From Thiotrichaceae bacterium (lineage in GTDB: Bacteria > Pseudomonadota > Gammaproteobacteria > SZUA-140), in assembly GCA_002401765.2 (NCBI GenBank), contig NVTY02000010.1, positions 48,433 to 112,432 of the forward strand: a DNA stretch of 64,000 nt, written 5' to 3'. The position numbers were made by a program, and so were the translations under genes. Below the pieces are notes generated by a model, which saw nothing but the letters and a program-made list of their open reading frames with translations, had not been told where the DNA came from and searched no databases. This document shows, piece after piece, positions 18,806 to 59,430 of the stretch (position 1 is the first letter of the stretch; every line of letters starts with the position of its first letter).

Positions 18806-19289
18806 ATACTTATATTATCCTTGCAGAGCCATTCGAGGCCTTGTGAAACGTGAAATTAATGTTTAATCGCAGATGGTCTCATATTGAAATGAGGGATAGC
18901 AAGGGCGGTATGATTTCTCTGCTTTCGTATGTAAAAAAACCGTCGTGTCCACCGCAGTTTATGACCTTTTAAGTCGTACATGTTTTTTAAGTTCATGTTA
19001 TATTTCATCGATTAGGAACCCTAGCTTATCATCCCGCTATAATTTTAGGTGATGGTGAGTGTTCAGGCTATCAACGTGACGCATTGATCGCATTAGCCTG
19101 GATTGTGTCCGGATTGTTCTGGGGGAGTGCAGAGCCATCTTGAAGAATCTGCATTAGCAAAATTAAGCATGATTATCGAATCTCAAAACTGATGAAACAG
19201 TCGGTGTGGGATTACTGCGTCTGCAATTGGCGTGATGTACGCGGTAAAAAAAAACAATAAAACATTGGCGAGCTGTGCGAGGGATACAC
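18806..19289. other. 484-bp intergenic region before the TolC gene
   Basis: The gap separates the divergent small membrane protein and TolC genes. No credible reading frame with a ribosome site is visible. A TATAAT lies at 19038-19043 without a good -35, and an imperfect inverted pair ACATG/CATGT lies near 18978-19000. It probably carries the promoters of both genes and a leader of some 240 bases for TolC. No RNA gene recognised. Confidence 0.5.
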
Positions 19290-38900: not shown

Positions 38901-41900
38901 AACTGTGGCTACCGCAGATGATCTACGGATATTGAATATTCAACGTGGTGATGGTGGCGAAATTGGCTCGGTGGTGTTTAGTACGACTAATAGTGATTCT
39001 CGTGAAGCGTTGAGCACCAAGGTCTTTGGTGATGCTGCATTAACAGATAGTGACCGCATACTGGAAAGCACGGTTGCATTGACCGGCTTTGGCCAGTTTG
39101 GCACCGAGATCGATAATATCCAGGAAATGGAACTGCGTCTCTCTGATGGCGTTGATACGCTGACCATTGAAGGCAGTATTAATGGCCACACAGAAGTGTC
39201 GCTGGGTGGTGCAGATGATATTGTGAATGTTCTCTCTACCTCCGGTGATGTCACTATTCTGGGTGGCGCAGGGGATGATACTGTCTATATTGGTGATGCG
39301 ACCCATACCACGGATGATATCGCCGGAGCGCTTGTATTTAAGGGCGATGCCCATCGCTATGAAGTTTCTTCGGGTACGGGTGTCATGCTGGATGTGGTGG
39401 ATATTGATGCCACGACTGGACAGCAGAAGATGCTAGCGGTTGAGGTTACTCAGGCGAATCTAAACACTTACTTCCAAAACCCTCCGACCATCAATGACAG
39501 CGATTATTATTTTGATAATGCCGCTGTTTATGATGGTGCCGCTGGTTTCGAGTTGATCGACCCTGTCAGCGGTGAGTTTGTTGAGAAGAGCGGTAAGATC
39601 CAGTATCAAAATGGTCAGACGGTTGCTCAACATGGTAATCAATTGAATGAGAGTGGTGTTGCCATGTCAGCACTGTCAATCACTCATCTGAATAACACAG
39701 TTAATGTTTTTACGGTGAAACCTCAAGTTGAGGAATTTCAGGTCAAGGTTGAAGTCCGTGATACCCACTTGATGGAAGAGACTGAAGTGACCGAGACTTA
39801 TGTTGAGCGGGTGACGTCAGGCGCGGGTAGTAATGATCGTTTACTGATTAATAACCGTAGCTCATTGACGGCGCAGAATGGTCAGTTGAGCGCAACGCAT
39901 GTGACTGGTCTGGGTATGGACGATGGCATTGAATACAGTGGTATTGAAGCGGTTACCATCGATCTAGGTGACTTGGCGGATACCTTTGATATTGTTGGCT
40001 CTTCAGTATCATCAACGCTTAATACCCACGGTGGTGACGATGTAATTAATATCTCGTCTGATGGTGCCACGCTAATGGGAGACCTTGATGGTCTCGATAG
40101 CTCACTGAATATCGATGCGGGTAGTGGTGCTAATGCGCTTAATGTAAGTGATGTTGCGGATAGTACAGGAGATACTGTGTTGATCAGTGATGTTCACATC
40201 AGCGTCGGCGATTCAGATATTCATTATGTGGCTACGGCGGGTAACTTTCTCGGTGGTATCGATGTTCAGCTGGGCAGTGGCGGTAATATTATTACCATAG
40301 ATAGCTTGTTGTCTGATTCTCCAACGACGATACATGCGGGTCTGGGCAGTGATAATGTCACCGTGAGTAACAATAGTGATGCCACACTTGATCATATTAA
40401 TTCACTGTTAACCATTGATGGGCAGAGTGGCATTAATATACTGAATGTTAGTGATGATGGCGAGTCTTCAAACAGTAGCGGTGTATTGAGCGATAACAGC
40501 ATTACCGGTCTGGGAATGGCCATGGATGATATCGCTAAGGGGATTCGTTACAGCAATATCGAACAGCTAACTATCACGCTGGGTAGTGGTGCCGATCAAT
40601 TCCTGGTGATGGATACTCACACAAGGTTAACGCAATTAAACAGTGAAGATGGCATTGATACCATTACGATAGAAGGTGTTTCTGGTATTACGGATGTACT
40701 CACTGGTGCGAGCAGCGATATTTTCCATGTGGGTGTTGCTGGCGCGCTTGATAGTGCGATGCATGCCTTGCTGAACCTTGATGGCGAAAGCAGTGCTGAT
40801 ATTTATAACTTCTACCTGGCGGGTGCTGGGGCTGCATTAATTAATGTGCTGGATAGTGGTGGCAGTCGTGGTGATACCATTAATATTGATGGTACTGCCG
40901 CAGCTGATCAGTTCTTATTGCGCCGTGAATTCATTGCCAAAGTGAACGGTGATGAGGTTGAGCGCATTAACTACAACAGCAATATTGAACTACTGACGAT
41001 TGATAGCTTTGCTGGTGAAGATCGTTTCCATCTTGATGATAATAGCGCTGAAACATTGATTAATACCGGTGATGATAGTGATTACATCCAGGTTGGCCAG
41101 ATGTTCAAGGAAGTGCGTGAACCAGCTCATGTGGTAAGTGGCGATACGTTTGATACGGTTGAAACCACCAAAGGTCTATTGAGTAACGGTATCAACTTTG
41201 AAACTACCATTAATGGTGGTGAGGGTGCTGATAGTTTTCTGGTGATGCATAACCAGGCTCAGCTAAACCTGAATGGTGATGCGGGTGGCGATAGCTTTGT
41301 GGTACGTGCCTTTGCGCTGGTGGTTGGGGAATCCACTCAGAAAGCGACCGATATTGCGGGCGGTGACGATGCTGATTACATCGAATATGCCGAAAATTCA
41401 GCGGTGACGATCGATGGTGGTGATGGTGCTGATCGCGTCGTGGTAGTTGCAACAGAACAAGATGATGTGATTGTGGTTACCGATACGGGTGTCTATGGTG
41501 CTGGGGTGAATGTGAATTTCACCAATATCGAGATCCTTGAGATCGATGCGATGGAGGGGGATGATCGCATCTATATCCAGTCAACTAATAGCGACATGGT
41601 AACGTACATCTACGGTGGTTTAGGCAGTGACAGCTTTTACCTGGGTGCCGATGTACCGCATGATGTGGTGGCAAAAGATGCCGCTGGCAATGATGTGATT
41701 TTTCCTGATGTATTGCAGATGCTTGATCGTATTCAAGGCCCGTTGATTATTCAGGGCGGTCTTGATCTATTGGCTGATCGTACGATTCCTAACGCGCTGA
41801 TGTTACCAACGGAGAGCGATGGTGACGCGTTCGATATCGTTGATCACCCCAACTATCACGTTCGTGAAGAAGAGCAGACGGATACCCTAAACGTATTTGA

Positions 41901-44421
41901 TTATGACAGCACGTTGAATGATGACGGCGTGTTAACAAGGGATCGCCTCTATGGGTTGGGAATGGGCGGGGATCGTTCCTTCGATGATGAGACCTATGGT
42001 GGTGGCATCAGCTATTCTGCCTTTGAAGTGATGAACATTGAGCTGGGCAGTGGTAATGACACGCTAACGGTAGAGTCGACTCATGAAGGTACGACTGATA
42101 TTTCACTGGGCGATGGTAATGACACCTTGAACCTACAGTCGGTTGATGGTGAGACTTCGATTACCGGTGATGGTGGCAATGACATCTTCAATGTTGGTAC
42201 TGAAGCGCCATCTCTGGGTGGCGGCGTGATCAATCAGCTTAATGCTAACGTCACACTGAGCGGTAATAGTGGCAGCGATACCCTGAGTGTGGATGATGCA
42301 GCAGAGACGCGTGATACCCGCATTGATTTGACCGGCTCAACACTCGATAGCGAGTACATGGTTGGTACGCTGAACTACAACACCATGGATGACATCTTTA
42401 TTACCAGCGGCTCTGGTGATGATCTGCTCAATGTGTTGGGAACGCAGGATGGTGCCCATACTCGAATCGATAGTGCGGACGGTAATGATACCTTTAACCT
42501 TTCAAGTGATGGTGATTCACTTGAAGGAACGCTTGATGCGATTGCGGGTGACCTGTCGATAGAAGCTGGGCATGGCGATAACATGCTGAACATCAGTGAT
42601 GCCGGTAGTGATGTTGGTGATCTGGCTGCGGTGATGACACGCGCTTTAATCACCGGGCTTTCAGATGGTGCGATTGAATACGCGGCTACTGATGGGCGTT
42701 TTGCTGGCGGGATTAATCTATGGCTAGGTGAAGGTAATGATGAGCTCACCATCCACAGTACCCGAGCAGATGATGTGACCACGCTATGGCTGAATGGTGG
42801 TGATGACAGCACCACATTCACTGATGATGCCTCGGGCCTTGATGGCGCAACGATTGTCTTTGGTAACGCTGGTGATGATTCAATTGTGACCACCGCGTGG
42901 CACAGTAACCAGATTATATTTGGCGATAGTGGGGAAGTGCGTTATCGCGATAATGTTTATGAAGCATATAACGGCAGCATTATTATCAATAAAACGTTGC
43001 AGGGTATTGAGCGTGTCGAAAGCTCACTGCTGCTAGTGGGGGGTAACGATGTTATATCCGCAGGCAGTGGTGATGATGTGCTGGTTGGCGGCATTGGTGA
43101 TGATGACCTGAGTGGTGCAAGTGGTGATGATCTCTTGATTGGTAGCAATGGTTTTGTGCAGTTTGATAATGTCGGTGATGTGATTCAAGCGGGTGACATT
43201 GCAACGCCAGAGAGTCGTGATGAGAATGAAAGTGCTGTTGGTGTGCTCGGAGTACACATTGTTGGAAGTTCGTACGTAACGGAGGGCAGTCCAGCCTCTT
43301 CAGTTACCGACAATGATACGTTGAGCGGTGGCGATGGTGCTGATGTACTTCTTGGTGGTGATGGTAATGATCGTTTGTTGGGTGGTGGTGGTCGTGATGT
43401 ACTGATTGCTGACGGAGGCCTGATTACAAATGATAAGTCACGGCAACAATCCACTTATGAAACATCGCGCTTTCTAGTCGGTGGTAATGATTATCTGGAT
43501 GGTGGTGCGGGGAATGATATCCTTTTTGCTGGTGCCGGTAATGATTCGTTAGTGGGCTCACTATTTGAAGATATCCTGTTTGGTGGCAATGGCCGCGTGA
43601 CGGTGGAAAATGGCTTTGTCTCATCAATGGTTGGCATCGATAAGAATCAAAATATGACCTCATCGATTGCTTCTGGGCTCTACTCGGATCCTTCTGACAG
43701 GCTGTTGGCTATTCTGGATGAAATTGAACAGGATGCCGCACAACTGATGAGAATAACGGGCGGTGGTTTTGGTAGCGCTGATGTAGAAGAGACGGCGCAG
43801 CTTGAAGCGTCTGAAAAGCCAGTGATGTTGGCGAGTCTTGGCAGCGCTAGCACCGGTGGTTTAATACTGCAGGAACCTGAACTTGAGGTGCATCGAGTGG
43901 TGTATGGCGAAACACTCACCACGATTGCTGAAGATTACCTTGATGACGCGGATCGTTGGTCTGAAATCCAGGCGCTGAATCCTGAGATTACAGATCCAAA
44001 CCTGGTTCCAGCAGGGATGCTGATCAAGTTACCCGCGAAGAATGCAGCCGTTATCACTGATCCATTTGTGGGTCAGCTTGATGCGAATGACGTGCTCGAA
44101 CGGACCATGCTGGGTGGTATTGTGCCGATGGTAGGGGGTGTTGGACATCGTTATTCCGGTTTGAACTATGCTAATGCGGTAGCGGCTAACGAGCCTGGTA
44201 ACGACGTGAATATTGATGAAGTGCTGTTGGGTGTTGCTGCGGCAACCGCCGCGGCAGGCATGCGTTCATCATCTGGCTGGCGTGTATTGCAGGGTCGTGA
44301 TGAACTTGGCGGCGGCGATGAAGTTGGACGCGTTGACGATGAGGGGTACAATCGCCTCAAGAATGATTATGAAGGTAAACAATACCTTCGTTGGAATAAA
44401 GGATCATTACTTAGCGAGTAG
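20902..44421 (+). CDS. Giant LEPR-xLL / DUF4347 / RTX surface protein with metzincin-like and LysM domains
   Basis: A single uninterrupted frame of 7839 residues, about a third of the window. The first 33 residues are very basic and are followed by a LEPR-xLL motif (FEPLESRFLLSAD, residues 36-48); there is no ordinary signal peptide. DUF4347 spans about 214-366. Between 370 and 2290 there are beta modules with a recurrent aromatic-x-Phe...Trp...LDFS pattern (near 644, 734, 1495, 1734, 2055). RTX-type GGxGxDx blocks lie near 1366-1475, 2293-2390, 4534-4717 and 7373-7566. A metzincin-like site HEIGHALGMDD starts at 2681. Then follow helical DRDLL repeats (3161-3412), a Ser/Gly linker (about 4114-4145), three 80-residue tandem repeats (4842-5095), long Asp/Gly-rich beta repeats (5100-7370) and a LysM (7663-7712). 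The protein is strongly acidic. The last codons and stop lie in a 152-bp palindromic element. Adhesion or matrix function is inferred. Confidence 0.95.
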   Translation: MLARLRQSICARKKLQYEIRTQRAHKRLQQRQKFQFEPLESRFLLSADAILPPIAEFDEDNIIAEQAIVVALDDGNFDQASAADVDDTATGAFDGADIEIDFSSLVDGDRDAPAPVVEQVAAAPAPAPLSAQDIYLINELNGSQLVVIDPTVPEYESLLEQWGGESKLEIIDWSQPVAAVTTAVNPVLADESQESNEDDGGQLTSALDEKAPVAVVDATGQKNKAVITVILLDASRSGIDQISEILAEYTGYAGMHILAHGAAGTMRLGATTLNSSNLEQHRSQLASWGSAMAQGADLLLYGCNIAEGNLGAAFVEDISDYTGLDVAASNDATGGNNVGGDWVLEMSTGVIETEIFAAADYDHLLAAISATGTVNDDIITFTANKVTGSANVVIDPANGAFSVADTITVDGAAEDDIFRFTAIPNAKSMVLDGGAGNDTLDFSALANTELFFTVKGNKGTVVVETVDRSGAAPVYKTILTAKNVENIIGGGLGDTFLLAKAAVLKGDVSGMGGDDTIIFSAGSKIEGSVDGGLGENTLAYSYNTENSRPDVGKALDKKFLFSKDAGYKTKVTVDQKAGKASHINSGNIAGIDNIQKVIGGRDGLELSGSDGKDSIVSKAGDNQITGGKDDDTLDSLLGSGKDAFIFGDEWGHDVILNDASNKDVLDFSQVTYNLTFQVKNNLTDGITVVSTVENAATVAVKAAAAATGVSGNVAKDTGVKGIDLIIGGIGENSYQFSDEWNSNTIINDTAAGLAKGTLDFTAVTHDLVFTITAAGKVLVAASVTEGGVTSTYKVAAEGIANIKGGLGNNTYKIEGAGNITGSLTAAAANQVVGKNNILDYSRYGSAASINLTNTAVTFSDALPVVAVMAGPAAQLPIQEEWTYVVDVLKGTLKLDTTNANTLVNFSNANTHEVDEQNFKKALEKLINRSDFSVNKAVDEVTKKTTFTITFSEPKAIQNSAGAGLFDTDVKTKIAQASVSLSVGVTPTNDNKTQVISVAKSATVGEFKLKYGNVELATVTIDVNTDHNAIAAAIKTALEAEATDYNVAVTYVAEPQDHQWTVVFTAKVPATTPALDRIAVEEVTPLFYVYKLSVVGNNAGITNVAGVGGVDQTWSVHHSATDKTFDLKVVFSDLDGINLTADITAITHNISPDQLQQKLETKILEAITGQRFDVPPKVLISGMGTADFPWQITFANMGVVTLTAPVKTFTAEADITKHSASGFGAGAADKVTGINYVIGTGDGSDRIYGVEHVSGEIKKFRWNTITLEADKQTLLMDGKLNLQTGQAVLYQAAAAGTIKGLDVGTVYFISAEYDAATAKTKVRFFASHEEIAKLDNSFFNKANAIELGEPADAAVDQTLLQVLRTEGGSGNDILIANIINDANVLMGGAGNDVLVGGKNADYLDGGAGKDTLYSDGTHALDGVGEDVVRGGAGDDHIYGNAGTDHLLGGTGDDYLVGGAGSDIVKGGKGADKLAIIEKGDAKDYDQFHGGQGGDEYLFKGEWGMASLKETGSGTDTIDLSTTFENTLHVLSNGSYFSANGELVAGKLILDGAVNGSIEEVFLLNELNSLTGSQASSGSVLTQPGFSLHQVADNNKTTATLTAIAEPNVGTESAALKFRLMVDRGNGPEVYDVTLPKATYAAPEAARLALEDALINAINGVVNNAELLAKVGLTVELVNEHLQISATADGTLDDGNNVIAARMEFTVNALNAVMVGGKDNFSKFETIKLGEGANTFVFGNDYWGGGSSAATLAQAIPLVDMLARSLQGQLTIDTETLHKEGSPLVLDFRSVNHELYFNFSPVEGNPNVIELTIRTVQDLTLPIVGIGPEIRNDTIVFTHVDKNATILGGRYANTFNFDKGATYEGKLIGGEGIGPLTTFAGHTSDKVLDAIALVESVGTGLSLNDFLENAIFQVENNLSYSNFGAGSVADNLKHGITTINMEQLRTGGEAKSKAELAQQLLAGNLAGPLFDKLITETTGLSGSMENVKSANLGDVIVRSGINIVRGTDYDFSDLGDFKSNPAAFLSSGADTISIGDNPFSITPGVHILAGGSGADTYKFNSQFWGGALILDDVFSPSLALGGVGDAIVDGLIPHDTLDFSNVYQDLYYTVFNVSLNDIETIQAWAEENDAIPGDGFPIDIGVSAVLVTGFDPFGDNNTEAFRLSNVLSAQGGIGNANFAFAVGVENIAAGRGDNTVYFYDGAEIGGRIAPGFGGSLNLDYSEYHQTHVGAINNDSDGIETDLDTIDTTIFPEAFFTDELPDWAQSLFPSVDYTYGSATGSGGGALGVVEAGNIVGTLGADTINANRFDNEIKAGAGADTVNGEGGDDNIYGESGNDTLNGGAGEDQLFGGTGNDDLKGGDGDDSLLAGEGNDFVDGGADKDTYQLSVGENNHLFLFPGDSRDWINSAVISEGVNTALTGGTDKASDPWTLTHDWGAGAIIEKNAMTNVEMILINNAATLPQNAVIVTQDSKVQTIAINPTGLSGKGTYLLYIDSTDVIDMKGYGANKVDLGSYDSVANQQTLVIYANEEDKTNSANAILTLVINGKGAAITEADLNFTSAPALMAERWVSEASTTYQLIEQDLVAIREEAISRWMAATGDDPVIAEYLNSLVFSLADLDGQKLAQIFSSEIRIDIDAAGSGWFVDATPDADEEFSLLSQMGLSLADAESDAYAKYDLLSVMMHEIGHALGMDDVVQAGSLMNHELRGGVRAMIVIDDAAQLTLASAQLANEHGVEHSDEEKIIDGLADFAAWAESNITDVLLPDIIELPFLSQGLNALWDLSGGSAFTDAIGDGIRQEILAVFNDNTTVTTEELLALASVSAADSHRLSEFQATVDLGSNTTLLDLDLDILADLGLDLTALADLSMSEPLQLSTSMSLDFGFGIDAATGEFYIENPTLSAHVTVDHDNPLDVSLTVGPVGIGIEQGKIEIQAGILVPTEGRYGAADFGSFSVGAPVFDAASNYEVDLPFKLLGAMAGLVDEVGSISGSFNREDSPIQSGANLFASQFFALIPQTLNFDGVNFDALKDLTNVSLDAALEGIKETLRSAISEDGAAYVDLPFLNQSAVDLLGNGSTDIVQTIIDAIDVVQANLSDINHFEIDLNQEINRALGLGLAIGDDAAVDSAYSNLIELSTRLHAHSSNDDLALALAQQNHAAAFDDLLFDRDISGANDRLTAWGLDLDSTDLDIAEAVVDVATYAALKADRDLLAANSGFMDAMANLAKYGLDSNTRDAEIEALFDTTDAIASAEAQRIVLLDAAASDDEKLVARMQLAMLGIVIGDSSADDDITALDFDALLSQATEITATKAERDLLASETVLVDAANRLAEQGVSGNASDLAIATALVGIENLQDSYDDRDLLNEHEAVAITEAINRYATSGLALDASDVDVALTLIDQATLDLRVIDRDLLLQYENNKALDLEYSDSVLDLSFSINKAVTGNYDLALDLEDLPGLGELLTGNDLLTVDLESDGQIFVDADISLYLNFGFDLSSLGDPKILVYDDSQVIFNHLTIETIDPIDITGKLTLLPGLGGDALSLTLAIDDAEIFVDLEGSITLVEDDSDGAYLVSELAADASLWNVDLIGNIEANLPMYFPTASIPLGGTTKDFNGDGYGDNILHIDGQFRGDGDYDLNFITPNLNLADAFNVFEILNDPAKVLQGLEGMFDGLKSSIGDKFDNLNLPLVGDALKDAPDFIDDLRDSLLSAKGANGLYSGGLGKALQDEALKDEDVRRSTIELIQEGLYNTLGPGGMDILSAPKMVENPYTGKMEAVYGLDGTVEVVDITSPDDIQLVIEGNNLQFNVIIADEVFPTKLIGLDFGASLPGFDLSSDAGLEISMDYVFGLGFGFGASGFFVDTSGISESGSEFALDLDVGLTGGASAKLFFLEVSIEDYTGVDADGDLFGAGDEDGLSGFNGSFDIDLGDSSGDGKWVIVGPGSDLPEISATLSAELNVDLYASAGVPAIDLSALGFGDFSLELPPVETIIHYDQLLAEAVLGTNGISFDIGGEPELWFENVSVDAGQFISDFVGPILDPIITVIEPILPLLEMLTQEIGFLKELDAPFVSLRDMVALVLGPAAVAPIDALVSLSDIIDIAREFADSGLISFGDFEINLGDENTPSTPTQTESKKTSSSGSGSSGSGSSGSGSTSNNDATKSRIDEFSSQGSFELSLIQDPFNAVNLLLGNTADIFKYTLPALNIEMEFGKSIPIFPGLNARFGGGVDLVTDFTFGFDTRGFNQFEDGGWEDPLLLFNGFYMDDNIVNGVDNPEVVFGVTLSAGASLGVGGLIEAGVEGGIRGEVKFDFNDVAPDDGKFYADEMLKRLDQGVECLFDIEGSVSAFLDAFLWVGLDLGFSEITLYEYRHSFINEVLADFSHHCAEPATPDIADFNSTNGELTLRYEGANVGSAQNYTVEYVDGPLDLEALYNYAAASTEDAGRDDTAKTLWVDKNGRNLTEGANGSGSPLSDQVVIKSRGVIEVYNVADIKSITAVGTDETDRYTISDGVIEQGALTAIELITRGGDDYINLGGKNGLGNGALVSSVIDAGSGNDVIHGSAYADIISGGSGNDEIFGYAGDDWLHGVEDGVSANLEGSDLTARNFDRISGGAGADEIFGGDGDDQLKGDFDEELSENRTLNGADIIQGGAGNDYILGGGGDDVLSGGSGNDHLVGGSGADTLNAGSDNDLLEGGVGADTLHGDSGRNTLIGGADDDSIYGGSGQDTVEWTNGDGSDVEVVGGAGFDTLILKVVGENNDVVTVSDNAGEALVNFNGQLFSLASFEGIDLDVGIGRDTVTVDDLRGTSIQSFILDMGQGEVTETTPVSKIIGIDVRNEIAVVQVEPVMDGVNQQIFLPDEPFASGHEELDGFYQYTVGSPTYLFDDHGEPLLVSREIGDEGYLIHDVAGGLPADISVESLREVQTRSDAPLQQVFLPEDELEGEQEVLESFYRLNGDAQGYLFYTSGAPIFAEHLGLQVQAVEGGFTAGLTVDDFYAVETRNQITITAGEQSVREIFSVGEAFSANHSSDLEFYRVDAEQMDGVRESELGYLFDDEGEPLLEMVMIGADEHQVQSIEGGYSGEFEITTTDQLKRVETRLVIQSNSERSVVYVPELDEDGNEVKDSEGRVVMVASDDTDLFVKPLFDLDYDVDTLNIFGSDGVDQFDVSTEYKESLSTDVIAIQQAGGVLFNVVNGRVDSDVISIDTGDGDDIIDASGIEVNMLDHLSIISGGDDDIVIGSAFTDIINSGSGDDTVTGGASVDTFIDESGNDTLVEARNESGFRDISLFDNYLIVGFLPNAALETYDSYRAGAEVESLLYNDAPIFENARISGGENINVLVVGDDDGAVTVGGNTLAVENWGGNVILDNQGGGGGTSPEQYIVFMDGNGGMDVLIEDTGGSAGTDELMIYGSALNEFYTLEVLNPGTADEDARVRANKNGMQDLVHYDDQLDGLTINTLGGDDQLLLNDNRAETTIYSGSGEDSIVIGTVGTTIDENNISVVDVDNMTPGISVLTNIYGGSGDDYFEVNHNLATLWLYGNTGDDTFVLNTFLVKKDVADTLEEQRTLGIVGGEGKNSYDMRVDEEEIGDLYDYLQNGNVIIDGGPGTDTIVINGTAISDLFVITENFVAGAGRYVTFENIERLEINGAAGDDQIYVLSTAEGMETVVRGGSGNDEIHMGGDAPAVHFDPPEFLFSPEAVLVQNLREIYPVLSQDRASHGPNVYTAWESVELTHYSKRDGTSYAHYRYTSPLYSYSSIESDLLRWIENNKINLMEVANNQHVQDVSSVFAYDGFTFYQAGDSAQDRALIGITVQSLSNSFSQWDSHKWNEHHSAKIASTVSYTMAGYNFIDFDDRYYQVSSAIAPSKLWLDPDKYAVKEARSDDMTAFKGHLTIDGGESFDELGNAHQDRFVAHNEDGTVTTGALEALHDVQLRDADGRWLFDAGDVDANDEDGGYDLIATGNVAVGDVWTVDVDGDAFTYTSVDGDDINAVQDALRALVQGHSDFTTALTINDNETVATADDLRILNIQRGDGGEIGSVVFSTTNSDSREALSTKVFGDAALTDSDRILESTVALTGFGQFGTEIDNIQEMELRLSDGVDTLTIEGSINGHTEVSLGGADDIVNVLSTSGDVTILGGAGDDTVYIGDATHTTDDIAGALVFKGDAHRYEVSSGTGVMLDVVDIDATTGQQKMLAVEVTQANLNTYFQNPPTINDSDYYFDNAAVYDGAAGFELIDPVSGEFVEKSGKIQYQNGQTVAQHGNQLNESGVAMSALSITHLNNTVNVFTVKPQVEEFQVKVEVRDTHLMEETEVTETYVERVTSGAGSNDRLLINNRSSLTAQNGQLSATHVTGLGMDDGIEYSGIEAVTIDLGDLADTFDIVGSSVSSTLNTHGGDDVINISSDGATLMGDLDGLDSSLNIDAGSGANALNVSDVADSTGDTVLISDVHISVGDSDIHYVATAGNFLGGIDVQLGSGGNIITIDSLLSDSPTTIHAGLGSDNVTVSNNSDATLDHINSLLTIDGQSGINILNVSDDGESSNSSGVLSDNSITGLGMAMDDIAKGIRYSNIEQLTITLGSGADQFLVMDTHTRLTQLNSEDGIDTITIEGVSGITDVLTGASSDIFHVGVAGALDSAMHALLNLDGESSADIYNFYLAGAGAALINVLDSGGSRGDTINIDGTAAADQFLLRREFIAKVNGDEVERINYNSNIELLTIDSFAGEDRFHLDDNSAETLINTGDDSDYIQVGQMFKEVREPAHVVSGDTFDTVETTKGLLSNGINFETTINGGEGADSFLVMHNQAQLNLNGDAGGDSFVVRAFALVVGESTQKATDIAGGDDADYIEYAENSAVTIDGGDGADRVVVVATEQDDVIVVTDTGVYGAGVNVNFTNIEILEIDAMEGDDRIYIQSTNSDMVTYIYGGLGSDSFYLGADVPHDVVAKDAAGNDVIFPDVLQMLDRIQGPLIIQGGLDLLADRTIPNALMLPTESDGDAFDIVDHPNYHVREEEQTDTLNVFDYDSTLNDDGVLTRDRLYGLGMGGDRSFDDETYGGGISYSAFEVMNIELGSGNDTLTVESTHEGTTDISLGDGNDTLNLQSVDGETSITGDGGNDIFNVGTEAPSLGGGVINQLNANVTLSGNSGSDTLSVDDAAETRDTRIDLTGSTLDSEYMVGTLNYNTMDDIFITSGSGDDLLNVLGTQDGAHTRIDSADGNDTFNLSSDGDSLEGTLDAIAGDLSIEAGHGDNMLNISDAGSDVGDLAAVMTRALITGLSDGAIEYAATDGRFAGGINLWLGEGNDELTIHSTRADDVTTLWLNGGDDSTTFTDDASGLDGATIVFGNAGDDSIVTTAWHSNQIIFGDSGEVRYRDNVYEAYNGSIIINKTLQGIERVESSLLLVGGNDVISAGSGDDVLVGGIGDDDLSGASGDDLLIGSNGFVQFDNVGDVIQAGDIATPESRDENESAVGVLGVHIVGSSYVTEGSPASSVTDNDTLSGGDGADVLLGGDGNDRLLGGGGRDVLIADGGLITNDKSRQQSTYETSRFLVGGNDYLDGGAGNDILFAGAGNDSLVGSLFEDILFGGNGRVTVENGFVSSMVGIDKNQNMTSSIASGLYSDPSDRLLAILDEIEQDAAQLMRITGGGFGSADVEETAQLEASEKPVMLASLGSASTGGLILQEPELEVHRVVYGETLTTIAEDYLDDADRWSEIQALNPEITDPNLVPAGMLIKLPAKNAAVITDPFVGQLDANDVLERTMLGGIVPMVGGVGHRYSGLNYANAVAANEPGNDVNIDEVLLGVAAATAAAGMRSSSGWRVLQGRDELGGGDEVGRVDDEGYNRLKNDYEGKQYLRWNKGSLLSE
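21007..21045 (+). other. LEPR-xLL motif coding segment
   Basis: Residues 36-48 of the giant protein read FEPLESRFLLSAD, preceded by 33 residues with many Arg, Lys and Gln. The LEPR-xLL domain is known from N-termini of very large bacterial surface-type proteins and has been treated as a possible targeting element. It takes the place of a Sec signal peptide here, so it is the best candidate for recognition by a dedicated exporter (inference). Confidence 0.85.
21541..21999 (+). other. DUF4347 domain coding segment
   Basis: Residues about 214-366 contain the DUF4347 hallmarks HILAHGAAGTMRLGATTLN, LLLYGCNIAEG and VAASNDATGG, ending in DYDHLLA. The upstream stretch LVVIDPTVPEY (about 148-158) is the usual lead-in. 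DUF4347 is found at the N-terminal end of many giant RTX or cadherin-type adhesins. Its HGxxG and YGCN motifs suggest a protease- or caspase-like fold, but activity is unproven. Confidence 0.85.
24997..25322 (+). repeat. RTX calcium-binding repeat block 1
   Basis: Nonapeptide-type repeats GGSGNDILI, GGAGNDVLVGG, GGAGKDTLYS, GGAGDDHIYGN, GGTGDDYLVGG and GGAGSDIVKGG follow one another. This pattern forms calcium-bound parallel beta-rolls in hemolysin-type proteins. Confidence 0.9.
27778..28072 (+). repeat. RTX calcium-binding repeat block 2
   Basis: Eight or so repeats run from GTLGADTINAN through GAGADTVNGEGGDDNIYG and GGAGEDQLFGGTGNDDLKG to GGADKDTYQL. The spacing is regular at nine residues. 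It precedes the metzincin-like region by about 170 residues. Confidence 0.9.
28588..29016 (+). other. Metzincin-like zinc peptidase segment inside the giant protein
   Basis: Residues about 2563-2705. SEIRIDIDAAGSGWFVDATP precedes the zinc-binding helix HEIGHALGMDD (H2681, E2682, H2685, G2688, D2691), followed after seven residues by GSLMNHE, with M2699 placed like a Met-turn. HExxHxxGxxD with a Met-turn is the metzincin pattern, with Asp as third ligand as in snapalysin-type enzymes. All key residues are present, so it may be an active peptidase, perhaps for self-processing (inference). Confidence 0.75.
30382..31140 (+). repeat. Helical DRDLL repeats, about 40-58 residues apart
   Basis: DRDI/DRDLL/ERDLL-type starts occur at residues 3161, 3201, 3306, 3353 and 3402, with a degenerate QRIVLLD at 3248. 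Each is followed by an Ala/Leu/Asp-rich segment of about 35-50 residues with signs of two helices. This alpha-helical island stands out in an otherwise beta-rich protein. Confidence 0.65.
34501..35050 (+). repeat. RTX calcium-binding repeat block 3
   Basis: The largest RTX block: IDAGSGNDVIHGS, GGSGNDEIFGYAGDDWLHG, GGAGADEIFGGDGDDQLKG, then GGAGNDYILGGGGDDVLSG and on to GGSGQDTVEW. A non-repeat insert (about residues 4573-4593 and 4617-4629) breaks it twice. It begins the second half of the protein. Confidence 0.9.
35425..36186 (+). repeat. Three tandem repeats of about 80 residues plus a partial fourth
   Basis: Units start at residues 4842 (IFLPDEPF), 4921 (VFLPEDEL) and 5003 (IFSVGEAF), each with FY near position 18-20, a GYLF or TYLF motif, GEPLL or GAPIF and an ending VxTR (EVQTR, AVETR, RVETR). 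A shortened fourth start (VVYVPELDED) lies at 5096. The unit does not match a domain I know. Confidence 0.75.
43018..43600 (+). repeat. RTX calcium-binding repeat block 4 (C-terminal)
   Basis: Three clusters of GGxGxDxL repeats (AGSGDDVLVGGIGDDDLSG, GGDGADVLLGGDGNDRLLG, GGAGNDILFAGAGNDSLVG) are separated by non-repeat inserts of about 50-60 residues. Position near the C-terminus is where type I-secreted RTX proteins carry their folding repeats, but a LysM domain rather than a plain secretion signal follows here. Confidence 0.9.
43888..44037 (+). other. LysM domain coding segment
   Basis: Residues 7663-7712 read VHRVVYGETLTTIAEDYL, then WSEIQALNPEITDPNLV and PAGMLIKLP, a complete LysM with its typical start, central NP and closing strand. 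LysM binds N-acetylglucosamine polymers such as peptidoglycan. This suggests the C-terminus is held at the cell wall (inference). Confidence 0.88.
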
Positions 44422-44626: not shown

Positions 44627-44947
44627 ATGGCTGATAAAGATAAAGTACAAGCGACCAAAGGTGCGCCAAAAATTCGCTGGGACGATTCAAAAATGCGCAG
44701 CACCTACGCCAACGTCTGTAACGTATCGAGTACACGTGAAGAGGTTACGCTGTTGTTTGGTACCAATCAGGCATGGCACACTGGGCAGCCAGAAGTGTCT
44801 GTTGAGCTGAGTGACCGCATCATTATGAGCCCGTTTGCAGCCAAACGCCTGCTTCATCTTTTGAATAATGTGGTGGGTGAGTATGAAAATCGCTTTGGTG
44901 AACTAGAAATGCCAAAGGGAGCTCAAACACCTGAATCTACAAAATAG
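44627..44947 (+). CDS. DUF3467 family protein
   Basis: A 106-residue soluble protein. The core IRWDDSKMRSTYANVCNVSS, then EEVTLLFGTNQAW and ELSDRIIMSPFAAKRLLHLL, is typical of DUF3467. The family is small, cytoplasmic and of unknown function. It lies between the giant gene and the HlyD/SecA-like operon on the same strand, which suggests an accessory, regulatory or chaperone role (inference from position only). AAAGAGG precedes the ATG by about 10 bases. A hairpin follows its stop. Confidence 0.88.
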   Translation: MADKDKVQATKGAPKIRWDDSKMRSTYANVCNVSSTREEVTLLFGTNQAWHTGQPEVSVELSDRIIMSPFAAKRLLHLLNNVVGEYENRFGELEMPKGAQTPESTK

Positions 44948-46956: not shown

Positions 46957-49098
46957 ATGAGCGAGTCACTCTTTAGCCAATCCTGGTACCGGGTCTGTGA
47001 CCTGAAGGTGCGCCTGCGCAGCCATGCGAAAATCCTACGCCACACCTACCGTGACCAGGTGTGGTTTGTGTTGCAGGACCATGCGACCGGTAAGTTTCAC
47101 CGTCTCACGCCAGAGGCCTATTCCATCATTAGTTTGATGGATGGTAAACGCACGTTGCAGCAAGTGTGGGAATCCGCCTGTGAACACCTGGGGGATGATA
47201 TGCCGACGCAGGATGAGATGATTACGCTGCTGGGGAGCTTGCATCGTTCTGATGTGTTGCAGGCAGACCGGTTGCCTGATATCGGTGACTTGCAAGAGCG
47301 GCAGCGCACTGGACGGCGCAAAAAAATATTGCAGCAATTCAAATCGCCACTCGGTATTCGCATCCCATTGTTTGACCCTGAGCGCTTTTTACAATGGAGT
47401 TTTCCTTTTGTTAAGCCCTTTATCGGCTGGTTGGGTGCGGTTATCTGGTTGATGGCCGTGGTAACCGCCGTGATATTGGCAAGTGTGAACTGGGAACCGT
47501 TGACCGCCAATGTGGCGGACCGAGTGCTGGCAGCAGATAACTTGATTATGCTGATACTGGTCTATCCACTAGTGAAATTATTACATGAGCTGGGGCATGC
47601 CTACGCGGTTAAACGATGGGGTGGAGAGGTACATGAGGTCGGCATCATGCTGCTTGTTTTTATGCCTGTTCCCTATGTCGAAGCCTCGGCTGCATCGGCC
47701 TATCGCAGTAAATACCAGCGTATCTTTGTCAGTGCTGCGGGGATTTTTGCAGAAGTTTTTCTGGCTGCGCTCGCGATGATCTTATGGAGCTACTCTGAAC
47801 CGGGCGTGATGCGTTCAGTACTGTTTAACGTGATGTTGATTGCGGGCATCTCGACCGTGCTGTTTAACGGTAACCCGCTACTGCGTTTTGATGCCTATTA
47901 TGTGTTGGGCGATCTACTTGAAATTCCGAATTTAGGCGGGCGTGGTAATCAATATGTCGCCTACCTGGCGAAGCGTTATCTGTTGCGAATGAAGGAGGCA
48001 ATCTCTCCGGTTACTGCACCCGGTGAAGCGGGTTGGCTGGGCAGCTATGCGATCACCTCCTTCTTCTATCGTATGTTTATTATGGTGGTGATTATTCTGT
48101 TTGTGGCGACGCAATTTTTTGTGGTGGGGGTTGTGTTGGCAATGTGGGCATTTATCAATACGCTGATAATGCCGCTATGGAAGATTGTTTCGAGTTTTTT
48201 TACTGACCATCAACTTCAGGCACAGCGAGGGCGTGCCTCTGTGTTGGCGCTGGTTTCACTTTCACTAATTTTATTGCTGATATTTGTATTGCCGATGCCG
48301 CTCACAACGCGTGTTGAAGGGGTTAGCTGGGCACCCGAGCAGTCGCAAATACGGATCGCGGCGAATGGCTTTGTAACAACGGTGGTGGCGACGCCGCTGC
48401 AAACCGTTTCGGTTGGTGAACCGTTGGTGGTCACTACTAATCCGGCGGTTGAAGCGCAGGTGAAGATCGCGCAGGCAGAGTTGAACGAGGCGCGTGCGCG
48501 CTATCAAGCAAGTGTTGGCGAGCGAGCCGAACGGGCAGTGATTCGAGAAGAGATCAAGCAGCTAAAAAATGAACTCCAGCGAGAGCAAGAACGACAGGCG
48601 GCATTAACGATTCATAGCCATAGTGATGGGGTGTTTATTGTTAACGATGCGCACAATCTGCCGGGGCGATATATGGTGCGCGGTGACACCTTGGGTTATG
48701 TGATTAACCATCAGCAGATGTTGGTGCGGGCGGTGGTATCACAGGACTTTATTGACCTGCTCAGAAACCGGGCCGCATCCGTTGAAGTGCGTTTTGCATC
48801 TGATATTGCGCATTCCTATGCGGCAGAGGTGATCCAGGAAGTACCCGCGGCGAGCCATCAACTGCCCAGTATGGTGTTGAGTACGCAGGCGGGTGGCATC
48901 ATTGCGGTAGATCCGTCGGCGGAAGACCAGGCGAGTGCCTATCGCAAGATCTTTCAGTTTGAACTGGCGGTGTCCGATGCCAACATTACGCGTATTAATG
49001 AACGGGTCTTTGTCTTGTTTCGTCATCCGCCGGAGCCGTTGGCAAAACGACTTTATCGTGCAGTACGACGTGTATTGCTCAGTCAGTTTGATGCCTGA
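46957..49098 (+). CDS. PqqD-like / M50 metallopeptidase / HlyD fusion membrane protein
   Basis: A 713-residue protein. The N-terminus (about 30-100; FHRLTPEAYSIISLMDGKRT) resembles a PqqD-type peptide-binding domain. A polytopic M50 (site-2-protease-like) core follows, with the zinc motif HELGH at 210-214 and NGNPLLRFDAYY at 304-315, where D312 is the likely third ligand. From about 440 a membrane helix leads into a HlyD-type lipoyl/hairpin region (about 460-700) with FVTTVVATPLQTVSVGEPLV. This build matches proteins annotated as putative peptide zinc metalloproteases in bacteriocin and peptide export loci. It may bind, cut and pass on the export substrate (inference). Its stop is two bases before the SecA-like gene. 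Confidence 0.9.
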   Translation: MSESLFSQSWYRVCDLKVRLRSHAKILRHTYRDQVWFVLQDHATGKFHRLTPEAYSIISLMDGKRTLQQVWESACEHLGDDMPTQDEMITLLGSLHRSDVLQADRLPDIGDLQERQRTGRRKKILQQFKSPLGIRIPLFDPERFLQWSFPFVKPFIGWLGAVIWLMAVVTAVILASVNWEPLTANVADRVLAADNLIMLILVYPLVKLLHELGHAYAVKRWGGEVHEVGIMLLVFMPVPYVEASAASAYRSKYQRIFVSAAGIFAEVFLAALAMILWSYSEPGVMRSVLFNVMLIAGISTVLFNGNPLLRFDAYYVLGDLLEIPNLGGRGNQYVAYLAKRYLLRMKEAISPVTAPGEAGWLGSYAITSFFYRMFIMVVIILFVATQFFVVGVVLAMWAFINTLIMPLWKIVSSFFTDHQLQAQRGRASVLALVSLSLILLLIFVLPMPLTTRVEGVSWAPEQSQIRIAANGFVTTVVATPLQTVSVGEPLVVTTNPAVEAQVKIAQAELNEARARYQASVGERAERAVIREEIKQLKNELQREQERQAALTIHSHSDGVFIVNDAHNLPGRYMVRGDTLGYVINHQQMLVRAVVSQDFIDLLRNRAASVEVRFASDIAHSYAAEVIQEVPAASHQLPSMVLSTQAGGIIAVDPSAEDQASAYRKIFQFELAVSDANITRINERVFVLFRHPPEPLAKRLYRAVRRVLLSQFDA

Positions 49099-49100: not shown

Positions 49101-51098
49101 ATGGCTAGCTATCCTGATATTCTGCCTTCCTCTCGCATTCTCCATCTTGAGAAAACCGAACGTAAGATGGGCGCGCTGGATAATGCAATGAAGTCGGTTA
49201 TCACGCCGATTAAATTGCGTTTAACGATACTGCAGCGCCGCCATCTGCGCGGCATGGTGCGCAAGATTATCACTCAGCATGCCACGCTATCATCATTAAC
49301 GAATGACGAACTGCGTGCGCGTGTATTGCAGTTGCGTGGTGAGCTGTTAATCGAAGGGATGCAAGATGCATTGGTGATCCGTGCCTTTGCAATGATCCGT
49401 GAAACCGCGCAGCGCACCCTAGGGATGGCGCACTTTGATTCGCAGCTACTCGCCGGTCTGGCCATCCTCCGTTGCATGGTGATTGAGATGGAGACCGGCG
49501 AAGGAAAGACGCTAACCGCAACACTGCCGGCTGCGACCGCAGCACTCGCTGGCGTACCGGTGCATGTGATTACCGTGAATGATTATTTGGCCGAACGTGA
49601 TGCTGAAAGCATGGCGCCCGTCTATCAATGGCTCGGCCTGAGTATTGGGCATATCACACACGATGTTGAACATGGCATGCGAGCAGAAATTTATGATCGT
49701 GATGTGGTCTACTGCACCAATACGGAGTTGGCATTCGATTATCTCAAAGATCGCATTGTACTGGGCAGTGCTACCCGCCCGTTGCACCTGCATGCAGAAC
49801 AACTACAGGGCAAGCGTAATCGCAGTCATCAACTATTATTGCGTGGGCTTCATTTTGCAATTGTGGATGAGGCCGATAGCGTGCTGATTGATGAGTCACG
49901 TACCCCGCTGGTGATCTCGGGTGGTGAAGATGGTGCAGACAACGGTGAAGAGAAGATGATGCGTGAAGCGCTAGCGCTGGCGCAACAACTTGAAAATGAA
50001 CTGCATTTTACCATCGATAAAGGTGAGGCGAAGATTGAACTGACTGAACGTGGCGAGTTGACCGTTTCTGAATTGGCCGCGGCCTATGGTGCGACCTGGA
50101 GTAGCCATATTCGACAGTTAGAGTTGGCGCGACAGGCGCTTTCTGCCCTCTATCTTTTTCAGCTCGATAAACACTACCTGATACGTGATAACAAGATTCA
50201 GATTATTGATGAGCACACCGGGCGGGTGATGGAGGGGCGTAGCTGGGAGCGTGGTCTGCATCAGTTGATCGAAATCAAAGAAGGCTGCGAGGTGACCAAA
50301 GCGCGTGAAACAAAGGCGCGCATGAGTTATCAACGTTTCTTTCGTCGCTATCGCCATCTGGGCGGGATGACCGGCACGGTGAAAGAGGTCGCGCATGAGC
50401 TGCTATCGGTTTATGCCTTACCGACGATGGCGATTCCGTCACGGCGAGCGTCTCGTCGTATCAACCAGGGGATTCGTATCTTCCAGACGGCTGAAGAAAA
50501 GTGGCGGGCGGTTTGTGATAGAGTGAAAACGCTGCATGAAGATGACCGTCCGATACTCATTGGTGTGCATTCGGTGGCGAGTTCTGAACATTTGAGTGCA
50601 CTGTTGGATGAACTGGGATTGGTGCACCGTGTATTGAATGCCAAGAATGACAGCGAAGAGGCGGCGATTGTGGCGCAGGCGGGCGAATTTGGTTGCATCA
50701 CCATCGCCACTAGTATGGCCGGGCGTGGTACCGACATTAAGCTGGCTGAGGGGGTTGATGAACAGGGCGGTTTGCATGTCATCCTCACTGAACGTTTTGA
50801 AGCGGCACGTATCGATCGACAACTGGCAGGGCGTTGCGCACGTCAGGGGGATGCCGGTAGCTTTGAAGCACTGCTTTCTATGGAAGATTATCTGCTGGAA
50901 CGTTGGGCGGGACCGTTGAGTGCCTGTGCTAGCAGTGGTCTGTTGGCTGCTGTTGGATTGCGCCGCCCGCTATCTCATTGGGCGATGAGGCGTGTACAAA
51001 AACGACAGGAGCGGGCGCATAGTAAGGTGCGCCGTGATGTGTTTAAGATGGATGATAAAATGGGCGAGATGCTCGCGTTTTCAGGAGTAATAGAATAG
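49101..51098 (+). CDS. Shortened SecA-like ATPase
   Basis: A 665-residue SecA-family DEAD-type motor. Walker A METGEGKT has its GEGKT at 133-137, Walker B VDEAD at 255-259, then DESRTPLVISG, YLIRDNKIQIIDEHTGR, GGMTGT (MTGT at 423), GRGTD at 541-545 and the arginine-finger motif QLAGRCARQGDAGS from 574. Housekeeping SecA is around 850-900 residues; here most of the C-terminal scaffold/wing region and the CxCxSG zinc-binding linker are missing, and the chain ends shortly after KVRRDVFKMDD. It is therefore an accessory paralogue, not the main SecA. No SecY-like gene is near. Being locked between M50-HlyD and HlyD genes, it is the likely energy source of this export system (inference). Confidence 0.92.
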   Translation: MASYPDILPSSRILHLEKTERKMGALDNAMKSVITPIKLRLTILQRRHLRGMVRKIITQHATLSSLTNDELRARVLQLRGELLIEGMQDALVIRAFAMIRETAQRTLGMAHFDSQLLAGLAILRCMVIEMETGEGKTLTATLPAATAALAGVPVHVITVNDYLAERDAESMAPVYQWLGLSIGHITHDVEHGMRAEIYDRDVVYCTNTELAFDYLKDRIVLGSATRPLHLHAEQLQGKRNRSHQLLLRGLHFAIVDEADSVLIDESRTPLVISGGEDGADNGEEKMMREALALAQQLENELHFTIDKGEAKIELTERGELTVSELAAAYGATWSSHIRQLELARQALSALYLFQLDKHYLIRDNKIQIIDEHTGRVMEGRSWERGLHQLIEIKEGCEVTKARETKARMSYQRFFRRYRHLGGMTGTVKEVAHELLSVYALPTMAIPSRRASRRINQGIRIFQTAEEKWRAVCDRVKTLHEDDRPILIGVHSVASSEHLSALLDELGLVHRVLNAKNDSEEAAIVAQAGEFGCITIATSMAGRGTDIKLAEGVDEQGGLHVILTERFEAARIDRQLAGRCARQGDAGSFEALLSMEDYLLERWAGPLSACASSGLLAAVGLRRPLSHWAMRRVQKRQERAHSKVRRDVFKMDDKMGEMLAFSGVIE

Positions 51099-51100: not shown

Positions 51101-51853
51101 ATGGTGCGATTTCCACGCAAAAAAGGTCTTGTGGTAGCGATGAGTGCTGCGTTATTGATGGCCACCTCATCACTTGCCTTTGCGGCCGATGATCTATTGG
51201 ATGAGCGCTTTGAATGTCTGATTGAGCCCAATACCGTGGTTAAGGTGAGCAGTGAAACCGCGGGGGTGATTGATGAAATCATGGTGCAACGAGGTGCTGG
51301 GGTGAAAAAAGGCGAGGTATTATTTGCCCTGACCACCGGGCGTGAGCGCGCAGCGGTTGAGTTGGCGCAGGCGCAACTCGATTTTAGCCAGCGAAAAGTG
51401 GTGCGCAATGAAGAGCTCTATCAGCAGCAGTTGATCTCTATTCATGAAAAAGATGAGATGGAGACTGAGAGCCAGATTGCTGAACTAGAATTGAAAGAGG
51501 CACAGGAAAACCTGAAAATTCGCAGCATTAAAAGCAAAATTGGCGGGGTAGTGGTAGAGCGCATGGCAGCGGCCGGTGAGCATGTTGGCGCGGCCCCGGT
51601 GATTGTTATCGCGAGTATTGACCCGCTGCATGTAGAGGTAGTGGTGCCAGCAGAATATTTTGGTACGATCAAAAAAAGGGCGAGTGCGTTGTTATACCCC
51701 TTCGACCCTATTGGCGGTGAATATAAAGCAAGGGTGATCGTGGTAGATCCTTTAATCGATGCCGCCAGTGGTACCTTTGGGGTGCGTTTGAAACTGCCCA
51801 ACCCCGGTTATCGTCTGCCCGCGGGGCTGGGTTGTGAGGTGAAATTTCTGTGA
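51101..51853 (+). CDS. HlyD-type periplasmic adaptor subunit
   Basis: A 250-residue adaptor with a signal sequence or N-terminal anchor (LVVAMSAALLMATSSLAFAA). The lipoyl-like half-motif VKVSSETAGVIDEIMVQRGA is followed by a short helical hairpin (about 80-130), the second lipoyl half IKSKIGGVVVERMAAAGEHV and a beta-barrel. Very short for the family, about half the length of many HlyD proteins. The start is ATG at 51101, or GTG at 51098 overlapping the SecA-like stop; AGGAG lies 10-13 bases upstream. Third adaptor-type protein in the operon; its likely outer partner is the TolC protein at 19290. Confidence 0.9.
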   Translation: MVRFPRKKGLVVAMSAALLMATSSLAFAADDLLDERFECLIEPNTVVKVSSETAGVIDEIMVQRGAGVKKGEVLFALTTGRERAAVELAQAQLDFSQRKVVRNEELYQQQLISIHEKDEMETESQIAELELKEAQENLKIRSIKSKIGGVVVERMAAAGEHVGAAPVIVIASIDPLHVEVVVPAEYFGTIKKRASALLYPFDPIGGEYKARVIVVDPLIDAASGTFGVRLKLPNPGYRLPAGLGCEVKFL

Positions 51854-51861
51854 GGTTAGCG

Positions 51862-52296
51862 ATGAGAAAGTGTCACGTAATTATTTCAGCAACGTTATTT
51901 GCCATCAGTCTTGTTGCGCCGGTGAATGCGGCGGAGCGAGCACCGCAAATAATAATCGATGGGTTGCTGGCCTATAAAACGGATGGCGCGGGCGTGGCGG
52001 TTGCCACCTGGCTTAAAGGGAGTGCGTTATCGAGTAAAAAGACCGCTGACCGACTAGAGCAGCAGTTGCAGAAGGTCGGACGTACCTGTGGCCAATATCG
52101 TGGCTACGAAACAGTGCATGTTAATCCTTTTTCAGACAGTGCTCGTTTTGTTTACATGCAACTCAACTACGGCGCATGCCCACTGTTTGGCCGTTTTGTG
52201 GTCTACAACACTGGACGTAGCTGGGTGCTGACGCAGGTGAATTTTAATGCCAATCCAGAGAAGGTATTGCCGCCGCAGCTACTAATATCAGATTGA
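51862..52296 (+). CDS. Small exported protein of unknown function, last gene of the export operon
   Basis: A 144-residue protein with signal peptide (CHVIISATLFAISLVAPVNA). The mature part has two cysteines (in RTCGQYRGYE and GACPLFG) that could form one disulfide, and ends LPPQLLISD. I do not recognise the family. GAGG sits about seven bases before the ATG at 51862; an alternative GTG at 51850 overlaps the stop of the HlyD gene. Tight linkage suggests a periplasmic accessory to the exporter. Confidence 0.75.
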   Translation: MRKCHVIISATLFAISLVAPVNAAERAPQIIIDGLLAYKTDGAGVAVATWLKGSALSSKKTADRLEQQLQKVGRTCGQYRGYETVHVNPFSDSARFVYMQLNYGACPLFGRFVVYNTGRSWVLTQVNFNANPEKVLPPQLLISD

Positions 52297-56604: not shown

Positions 56605-56613
56605 GGTCTTTAA

Positions 56614-59363: not shown

Positions 59364-59430
59364 TATGGGTTTTGTCCTTGTTATCATGCATGGGTTTTGC
59401 TTAGCGTAAACTGGTGGATCTATTATAGAT

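Follow-up and report, generated by a model that had tools for sequence, protein, structure and literature searches.

A truncated SecA paralogue as the probable ATPase of an export machine for giant LEPR-XLL proteins

The window analysed here, a stretch of 64,000 nucleotides from a Thiotrichaceae bacterium (genome G000; contig NVTY02000010.1), carries an operon with a SecA paralogue of 665 amino acids (aa), referred to as SecA* (49101–51098, forward strand). SecA* probably powers, as a cytoplasmic ATPase, a machine that exports giant surface proteins. It is encoded together with a PqqD-like/M50/HlyD fusion protein (M50-HlyD), HlyD-family adaptors, a TolC-family channel and a giant protein with the LEPR-XLL motif, and this gene order is kept in many Gammaproteobacteria and on alphaproteobacterial plasmids. 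The link between the module and LEPR-XLL giants as its substrate is strong, both genome-wide and by position. The module and the motif were each on record before; new are the assignment of the published module to LEPR-XLL giants, which is strongly indicated, and a candidate reader of their leader.

Co-occurrence and adjacency of the module and LEPR-XLL proteins

Among 274 sampled Gammaproteobacteria, an operon-type M50-HlyD (at least 430 bits to the alignment) was found in 21 genomes and LEPR-XLL (E < 1e-3) in 19, and 15 genomes possess both (expected 1.5, p 1e-16). Six operon-type genomes gave no strong LEPR match. Among them, G275, G281 and G282 have a LEPR-like neighbour that the model missed, and G112 and G197 give weak matches. 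A sample of 398 Pseudomonadota, which partly overlaps with the first and in which LEPR matches with E up to 0.01 and any M50-HlyD were counted, contains M50-HlyD in 90 genomes, LEPR in 54 and both in 52 (expected 12.2, p 7e-38), and for operon-type M50-HlyD the figure is 35/37 (p 5e-34). At the genus level, which limits non-independence, M50-HlyD is present in 31 of the 32 genera with LEPR and in 47 of 213 genera overall (p 2e-24). One of the two LEPR genomes without M50-HlyD, G556, is represented by a 64-aa frame, which is probably a false match.

The coupling is also positional, with a LEPR frame lying no more than 5 kb from the M50-HlyD gene in 22 genomes and no more than 12 kb in 29. In related loci, the genes for GAF-HlyD, M50-HlyD, SecA* and the adaptor stand beside a protein that starts with a LEPR-like motif, as in L099 (FEELEERRLFSGG), L102 (FEDLEPRLLLSAD), L105 (LESVEPRLLFSAG) and L114 (LESQERRILFSAD). 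Moreover, the start of the giant carries the motif in all five plasmid-borne modules (Mesorhizobium ciceri, Methylosinus sp. C49, Pseudosulfitobacter, Pontibrevibacter and Alisedimentitalea), three of these giants being annotated as something other than LEPR. The Alisedimentitalea giant is named a "calcium-binding protein" (NZ_CP123586.1 near 183224, L167), and its motif, VEQLEPRLLLAAD, lies in frame just upstream of a start that appears to have been mis-called.

SecA* itself, judged by frame length and position, occurs in at least 17 genomes of the 274-genome sample and, among the matches listed, only together with an operon-type M50-HlyD. Because M50-HlyD is the most constant neighbour in the module, the M50 protein is a plausible partner of SecA*, as the earlier note on this DNA had suggested.

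The giant LEPR-XLL protein

The giant neighbour belongs to the LEPR-XLL family (NF012209). Its motif overlaps a weak match to PF07595 Planc_extracel (E 0.011, 15.9 bits against a cut-off of 25.5), which makes it a related motif and not a member by cut-off. Downstream of the motif, the protein carries DUF4347, RTX repeats, a matrixin-like segment and, close to its end, LysM. The N-termini of the giants are basic and weakly hydrophobic, the best 12-residue mean being 0.8–1.8 compared with 2.5 for the window's adaptor and TolC; no hydrophobic signal peptide was seen in this comparison, unlike the case of a Sec signal peptide.

A separate observation concerns the matrixin-like zinc site (window 25702–29301; PF00413, E 5e-6; HEIGHALGMDD), according to which part of the giant may be a protease.

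Sequence, structure and phylogeny of SecA*

SecA* is a member of the SecA family by Pfam matches, motifs and fold, with the motor domains and the preprotein cross-linking domain all matched well over cut-off (SecA_DEAD PF07517, E 1.5e-98; P-loop_SecA PF21090, 8e-50; SecA_PP_bind PF01043, 1e-26). The earlier note had read all nucleotide-binding motifs as intact, and this is borne out by the alignment, in which GEGKT, DEADS (residues 256–260), GRGTD and the arginine-finger region QLxGRxxRQG are present and their core residues invariant or nearly so across 19 relatives.

The closest solved relatives of SecA* are SecA proteins. Its AlphaFold model (predicted local distance difference test score, pLDDT, 82; predicted template modelling score, pTM, 0.80) superposes best by template modelling (TM) score in Foldseek on SecY- and substrate-bound SecA (6itc and 5eul; TM 0.81, root-mean-square deviation 3.2). 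Since the alignment with B. subtilis SecA runs out at residue ~603 of the latter and the last element of the model is a single helix (622–660), the start of the scaffold helix, SecA* lacks the rest of the scaffold, which is most of it, together with the wing, two-helix finger and zinc-binding tail, in keeping with what had been noticed about the short chain. Most relatives end at the same point with a C-terminal LxFSG tail, so the end point is a family trait and not a chance truncation.

In a quick tree of 49 proteins built on the shared motor region, with support from the Shimodaira–Hasegawa-like approximate likelihood ratio test (SH-aLRT), all 29 SecA* proteins fall on one side of a single branch (SH-aLRT 100, stem length 1.26), three of their rows having long branches. 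The other side holds all housekeeping SecAs (of this genome, its relatives, E. coli, Legionella, Shinella, Nocardia and Bacillota) as well as two Lactobacillus accessory SecAs. The same genome encodes a housekeeping SecA on contig C85; its open frame has 923 aa and shares 42% identity with SecA*. The distinct clade tied to HlyD-type operons, for which the earlier note had proposed a phylogeny, was thus recovered in 29 of 29 rows, and the two findings that would have spoken against it, a place within housekeeping SecA and a genome without any other SecA, were not encountered.

Two other identities were considered and rejected. A recent truncation or pseudogene of housekeeping SecA disagrees with the tree, with an end point and LxFSG tail that are conserved, and with the separate 923-aa SecA. 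By score, SecA* stays below the curated cut-offs for housekeeping SecA (TIGR00963, 576.8 against 800 bits; NF009538, 583 against 814). A Gram-positive SecA2 is contradicted by the two Lactobacillus accessory SecAs lying outside the clade, by SecA2 models that all stay below cut-off (TIGR03714, 505/930 bits; TIGR04397, 532/1085; TIGR04221, 414/725; NF012136, 373/1100) and by the SecY count: the genome (92% complete) has one SecY, and no dedicated second SecY as in SecA2-SecY2 systems was found in it, in agreement with the earlier remark that nothing like SecY2 is present.

The family is hidden from annotation searches, as RefSeq labels SecA* proteins "prepilin peptidase" or "DEAD/DEAH box helicase" (L144:14034-15950, L145:13785-15809, L143:13959-15920 and L146:13992-15977).

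The M50-HlyD protein and a proposed route of export

M50-HlyD combines three parts. Its first ~105 residues resemble PqqD: PF05402 matches 18 of 20 members (best E 2.9e-7), a profile of these N-termini retrieves the solved PqqD 3g2b (E 1.3e-4), and several members are named "PqqD family" by RefSeq. The middle part is a peptidase M50, with PF02163 over cut-off and the HExxH motif and downstream aspartate in place; because H210, E211, H214 and D312 are invariant across 23 relatives, the site looks active. The C-terminal part matches the MexA/MacA/AcrA adaptors.

Gene content, the conserved operon, intact motifs, a single clade and the coupling to LEPR-XLL proteins are observed; leader recognition, pore, cleavage and motor role are inferred in the following proposed route. 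The basic, weakly hydrophobic N-terminus of the giant, with its LEPR-XLL motif, would serve as the export signal. PqqD-like domains read leaders in the pathways of ribosomally synthesised and post-translationally modified peptides (RiPPs), and for this reason the PqqD-like domain of M50-HlyD is proposed to bind the LEPR leader. The membrane-embedded M50 part, with its intact HExxH...D site, would form or gate the passage through the inner membrane and may also clip the leader. SecA*, by means of its nucleotide-binding domains and preprotein clamp, would feed the chain in at the expense of ATP, and GAF-HlyD, M50-HlyD and the small adaptor would connect to TolC, allowing the chain to exit in one step. 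SecA* keeps the clamp and loses the parts that dock on SecY, which fits a partner other than SecY.

A wider reading, which we hold to be possible but just short of probable, is that the module represents a separate secretion class, an ABC (ATP-binding cassette)- and SecY-independent trans-envelope exporter, in which a domain resembling a RiPP recognition element (RRE) on the M50 protein reads a dedicated N-terminal LEPR-XLL/Planc_extracel leader, the chain is driven by a motor derived from SecA, and the giants pass straight out by way of TolC-type adaptors. If true, this would account for the export of the largest proteins of planctomycetes and many Pseudomonadota.

Type-2 loci

A second, more distant group of M50-HlyD operons, termed type 2, encodes an M50-HlyD at 60–360 bits, two adaptors and an outer membrane efflux protein (OEP). 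The neighbouring LEPR variants include ALEPRLLFS (LEPRLLFS) and LEERVVLDAA, and SecA* is absent from most of these loci. They comprise L118–L131 and L136 (G195, G118, G212, G137, G252, G134, G241, G079, G057, G255, G180, G130, G211 and G246), and two OEP channels with a C-terminal SPOR domain were noted among them. In G079, a divergent 571-aa SecA-like protein (223 bits; L125:4599-6314, reverse strand) adjoins the type-2 M50-HlyD gene and is possibly a second, more reduced SecA* lineage.

Points against the proposal and alternative explanations

Several observations weigh against SecA* as the motor of a LEPR-XLL exporter. LEPR proteins are present in the type-1 loci of G208 and G223 and in nearly all type-2 loci, and SecA* is absent from them. 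The two-helix finger, which touches the chain in SecA-SecY, is missing from SecA*. The PqqD match of the window's own M50-HlyD stays under the Pfam cut-off (19.1 against 23.4 bits, E 0.0017), and we know of no M50 protein that forms a protein channel. G000 carries elsewhere an HlyB-type ABC exporter that could serve the RTX giant, although its frame (C81:1702-3783, reverse strand) contains one in-frame TAG, perhaps the mark of a pseudogene, an assembly error or a start artefact; a partial HlyB-type frame lies on C58. As well, expression of three of the four module genes was low or absent in M. extorquens AM1 (PMC4452313).

Some of these points have changed the proposal. The idea that SecA* always accompanies M50-HlyD was dropped; because most type-2 and some type-1 loci do without SecA*, what stays constant is the pairing of M50-HlyD hub and signal, and at most one branch would use SecA* as its motor. 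The argument that G000 has no type I ABC transporter, and that SecA* must hence be the motor, was given up on account of the frames on C81 and C58, while the single-contig genomes G072 and G124 still support it. In SecA, both the two-helix finger and the clamp take part in moving the chain, and the loss of the finger therefore does not exclude SecA* as a motor.

The same observations bear on an explanation that we consider unlikely, in which a machine of M50-HlyD, adaptor and TolC exports the LEPR proteins with energy from the proton-motive force or from housekeeping SecA, and SecA* has an accessory part as an ATPase (for example in unfolding the chain, or as a chaperone holding or feeding it) or as a regulator. 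It would account for the missing finger and for type-2 loci, which have M50-HlyD, two adaptors, an outer membrane channel and LEPR proteins and mostly no SecA*, as well as for G208 and G223. Where SecA* is present, however, it sits in the operon core 2 bp from M50-HlyD with its motor residues conserved, and no further gene for energy coupling turns up repeatedly in the loci read.

Highly improbable is the explanation that the giant RTX protein leaves through an ordinary type I system, its ABC transporter being encoded elsewhere, and that the SecA*/M50-HlyD module does something else. The RTX repeats of the giant, the use of TolC by type I systems in general and the HlyB-type frames of G000 are consistent with it, but the frame on C81 has an in-frame stop, and M50-HlyD accompanies LEPR in 52 of 54 genomes. 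Type I secretion signals are C-terminal, whereas the conserved motif of this cargo is N-terminal. Moreover, in the single-contig genomes G072 and G124, whose LEPR proteins have open frames of 13,848 aa and 3,186 aa (G072) and of 8,630 aa (G124), the only ABC exporters seen are ~580–650 aa long and bear no type I ABC signature (HlyB/LapB N-terminal domain; PrtD cut-off) at the sensitivity used.

Equally hard to credit is a SecA2-only type of system, in which SecA* works with housekeeping SecYEG to bring the giant, or else the adaptors, through the inner membrane and M50-HlyD and TolC act afterwards. The single SecY, a feature of SecA2-only systems too, the superposition of the SecA* model on SecY-bound SecA and a 2015 tree that sets the secondary SecA clade beside actinobacterial SecA2 (PMC4452313) agree with it, but the elements that dock on or reach into SecY (the wing, the two-helix finger and most of the scaffold) are missing from SecA*, no hydrophobic signal peptide was seen in the giants, and no SecA2 model reaches its cut-off.

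Relation to known systems

The SecA_DEAD family with HlyD and M50 neighbours was reported by Kamneva, Poudel and Ward 2015 (PMC4452313), who proposed SecA as the ATPase and M50 as the pore and described the wider biological function as "completely unknown". Their module has SecA_DEAD without SecA_SW beside GAF-HlyD, M50-HlyD and HlyD genes and sometimes OEP, has no ABC gene and forms its own clade. The locus described here agrees with it in gene set and in a clade apart from the housekeeping SecAs of the same genomes (29 rows, SH-aLRT 100). LEPR, PqqD, giant proteins and adhesins all go unmentioned in the 2015 paper, and it names no substrate; unlike in that report, the module is here tied to giant LEPR-XLL proteins as the probable substrate, and the PqqD-like domain and LEPR link are added. 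The interpretation in the earlier note held as regards the distinct HlyD-linked clade and the absence of a second SecY, and it missed the giant LEPR-XLL neighbour, the PqqD-like domain and the published module.

LEPR-XLL sits on some of the largest bacterial proteins. PMC8567305 credits Studholme et al. 2004 with the proposal that Planc_extracel is a new kind of export signal on the surface proteins of planctomycetes, and eight of the ten longest Tuwongella proteins have the motif (PMC8567305). Like NF012209 and PF07595 in general, the motif here stands at the N-terminus of a very large surface protein; what is added is a proposed exporter, from co-occurrence and adjacency. The tie to the planctomycete signal comes from the sub-threshold Planc_extracel overlap, from PMC8567305 and from the 2015 report of the module in planctomycetes. 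In the open-licence literature found, no paper joins the LEPR-XLL/Planc_extracel signal to the SecA/HlyD/M50 module, an earlier report that escaped us being possible, and none names an exporter for these proteins. Two orphans, an export-signal motif without a named exporter in that literature and the 2015 module without a known substrate, thus appear to fit each other, and since they occur together almost without exception, each can be put to the test in tractable bacteria. Were SecA* indeed the motor, a SecA-type ATPase would have left SecY and been joined to a tripartite exporter, a route of protein export that in the literature found is preceded only by the 2015 suggestion.

The system resembles type I secretion (HlyB-HlyD-TolC, or LapB-LapC-LapE for giant RTX adhesins) in its HlyD-family adaptors, TolC-family channel and giant RTX cargo. 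Unlike type I systems, its locus has a SecA-type ATPase and an M50 membrane protein in place of an ABC transporter, and its cargo motif is N-terminal. No ABC transporter was found among the operon genes, from TolC to the 148-aa protein, or in the related modules read. With accessory SecA2 (streptococcal SecA2-SecY2; Listeria and mycobacterial SecA2-only) it shares a second SecA, an intact motor and particular exported proteins, but SecA* is shorter, occurs in a Gram-negative bacterium without SecY2, lies beside TolC-type adaptors, scores under the cut-offs of the SecA2 models and stands apart from the two Lactobacillus SecAs. Finally, a PqqD-like domain fused to M50 recalls PqqD/RRE proteins and RiPP M50 proteases such as daptide_HExxH (NF041824), with an HlyD part added here; the cargo next door is a giant protein and not a small peptide, and M50-HlyD scores only 131 bits against the NF041824 cut-off of 300.

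Other genes of the operon and further observations

The features of the locus are collected in Table 1. The junctions are tight, with 12 bp between GAF-HlyD and M50-HlyD, 2 bp between M50-HlyD and SecA*, and overlaps of 1 bp between SecA* and the small adaptor and 4 bp between the adaptor and the 148-aa gene, so that SecA* is wedged between HlyD-type genes as the earlier note described. The DUF3467 gene has a matching position in L033, L034, L100, L106, L117 and the plasmid modules. The 148-aa protein was otherwise met only in the close relative L033/L004.

Table 1. Features of the SecA* operon in the window (all on the forward strand; positions are those of the window)
Feature	Position	Strand	Basis or remark
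TolC-family outer membrane channel, 444 aa, immediately upstream of the giant gene	19275..20609	+	TIGR01844 308 bits, over cut-off; PF02321 E 2e-55
Giant LEPR-XLL protein, 7,839 aa, proposed substrate	20902..44421	+	DUF4347, RTX repeats, matrixin-like segment, LysM
LEPR-XLL motif, residues 34-53 (FQFEPLESRFLLSADAILP), proposed export signal	21001..21060	+	NF012209 23.8 bits, cut-off 17
DUF3467 protein, 106 aa, recurrent locus member	44627..44947	+	PF11950 E 6.5e-26
GAF-HlyD adaptor, 614 aa	45100..46944	+	HlyD_3, HlyD_D23 and GAF matches
M50-HlyD (PqqD-like/M50/HlyD fusion), 713 aa, proposed inner-membrane hub	46957..49098	+	PF02163 E 7.5e-8; model pLDDT 83.7
PqqD-like segment of M50-HlyD, residues 38-98	47068..47250	+	PF05402 in 18/20 members; PDB 3g2b E 1.3e-4
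M50 HExxH motif HELGH, residues 210-214	47584..47598	+	Third ligand D312 at 47890-47892
SecA*, truncated SecA paralogue, 665 aa	49101..51098	+	ATG start; family matches, alignment, model, tree
SecA* Walker A GEGKT, residues 133-137	49497..49511	+	Translation, alignment
SecA* DEAD box, residues 256-259	49866..49877	+	Translation; invariant in alignment
SecA* preprotein cross-linking domain, residues 284-391	49950..50273	+	PF01043 E 1e-26
SecA* GRGTD, residues 541-545	50721..50735	+	Invariant in alignment
SecA* arginine-finger region QLAGRCARQG, residues 574-583	50820..50849	+	G577, R578, R581, Q582, G583 invariant
SecA* C-terminal LAFSG tail	51072..51086	+	Common to most relatives
Small periplasmic adaptor (membrane fusion protein), 251 aa	51098..51853	+	GTG start, 1-bp overlap with SecA* stop; TIGR01730 116.7 bits, over cut-off
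148-aa protein, final gene of the run	51850..52296	+	No family match

A SapC-family protein recurs in or beside several of the modules (L145:12971-13792, L155:13144-13965, L167:558-1355, and probably L101:12196-12975 and L106:12897-13616), its gene lying between M50-HlyD and SecA* in two of them; SapC is the annotation in L145 and L167, and the rest were judged from similar N-termini.

Downstream of the operon, at window positions 55423–60225, the translations of an opposite-strand cluster resemble, by eye, a ligase of the glutamine synthetase type, an aldehyde dehydrogenase and an alcohol dehydrogenase of the iron type; an amidotransferase-like gene comes next.

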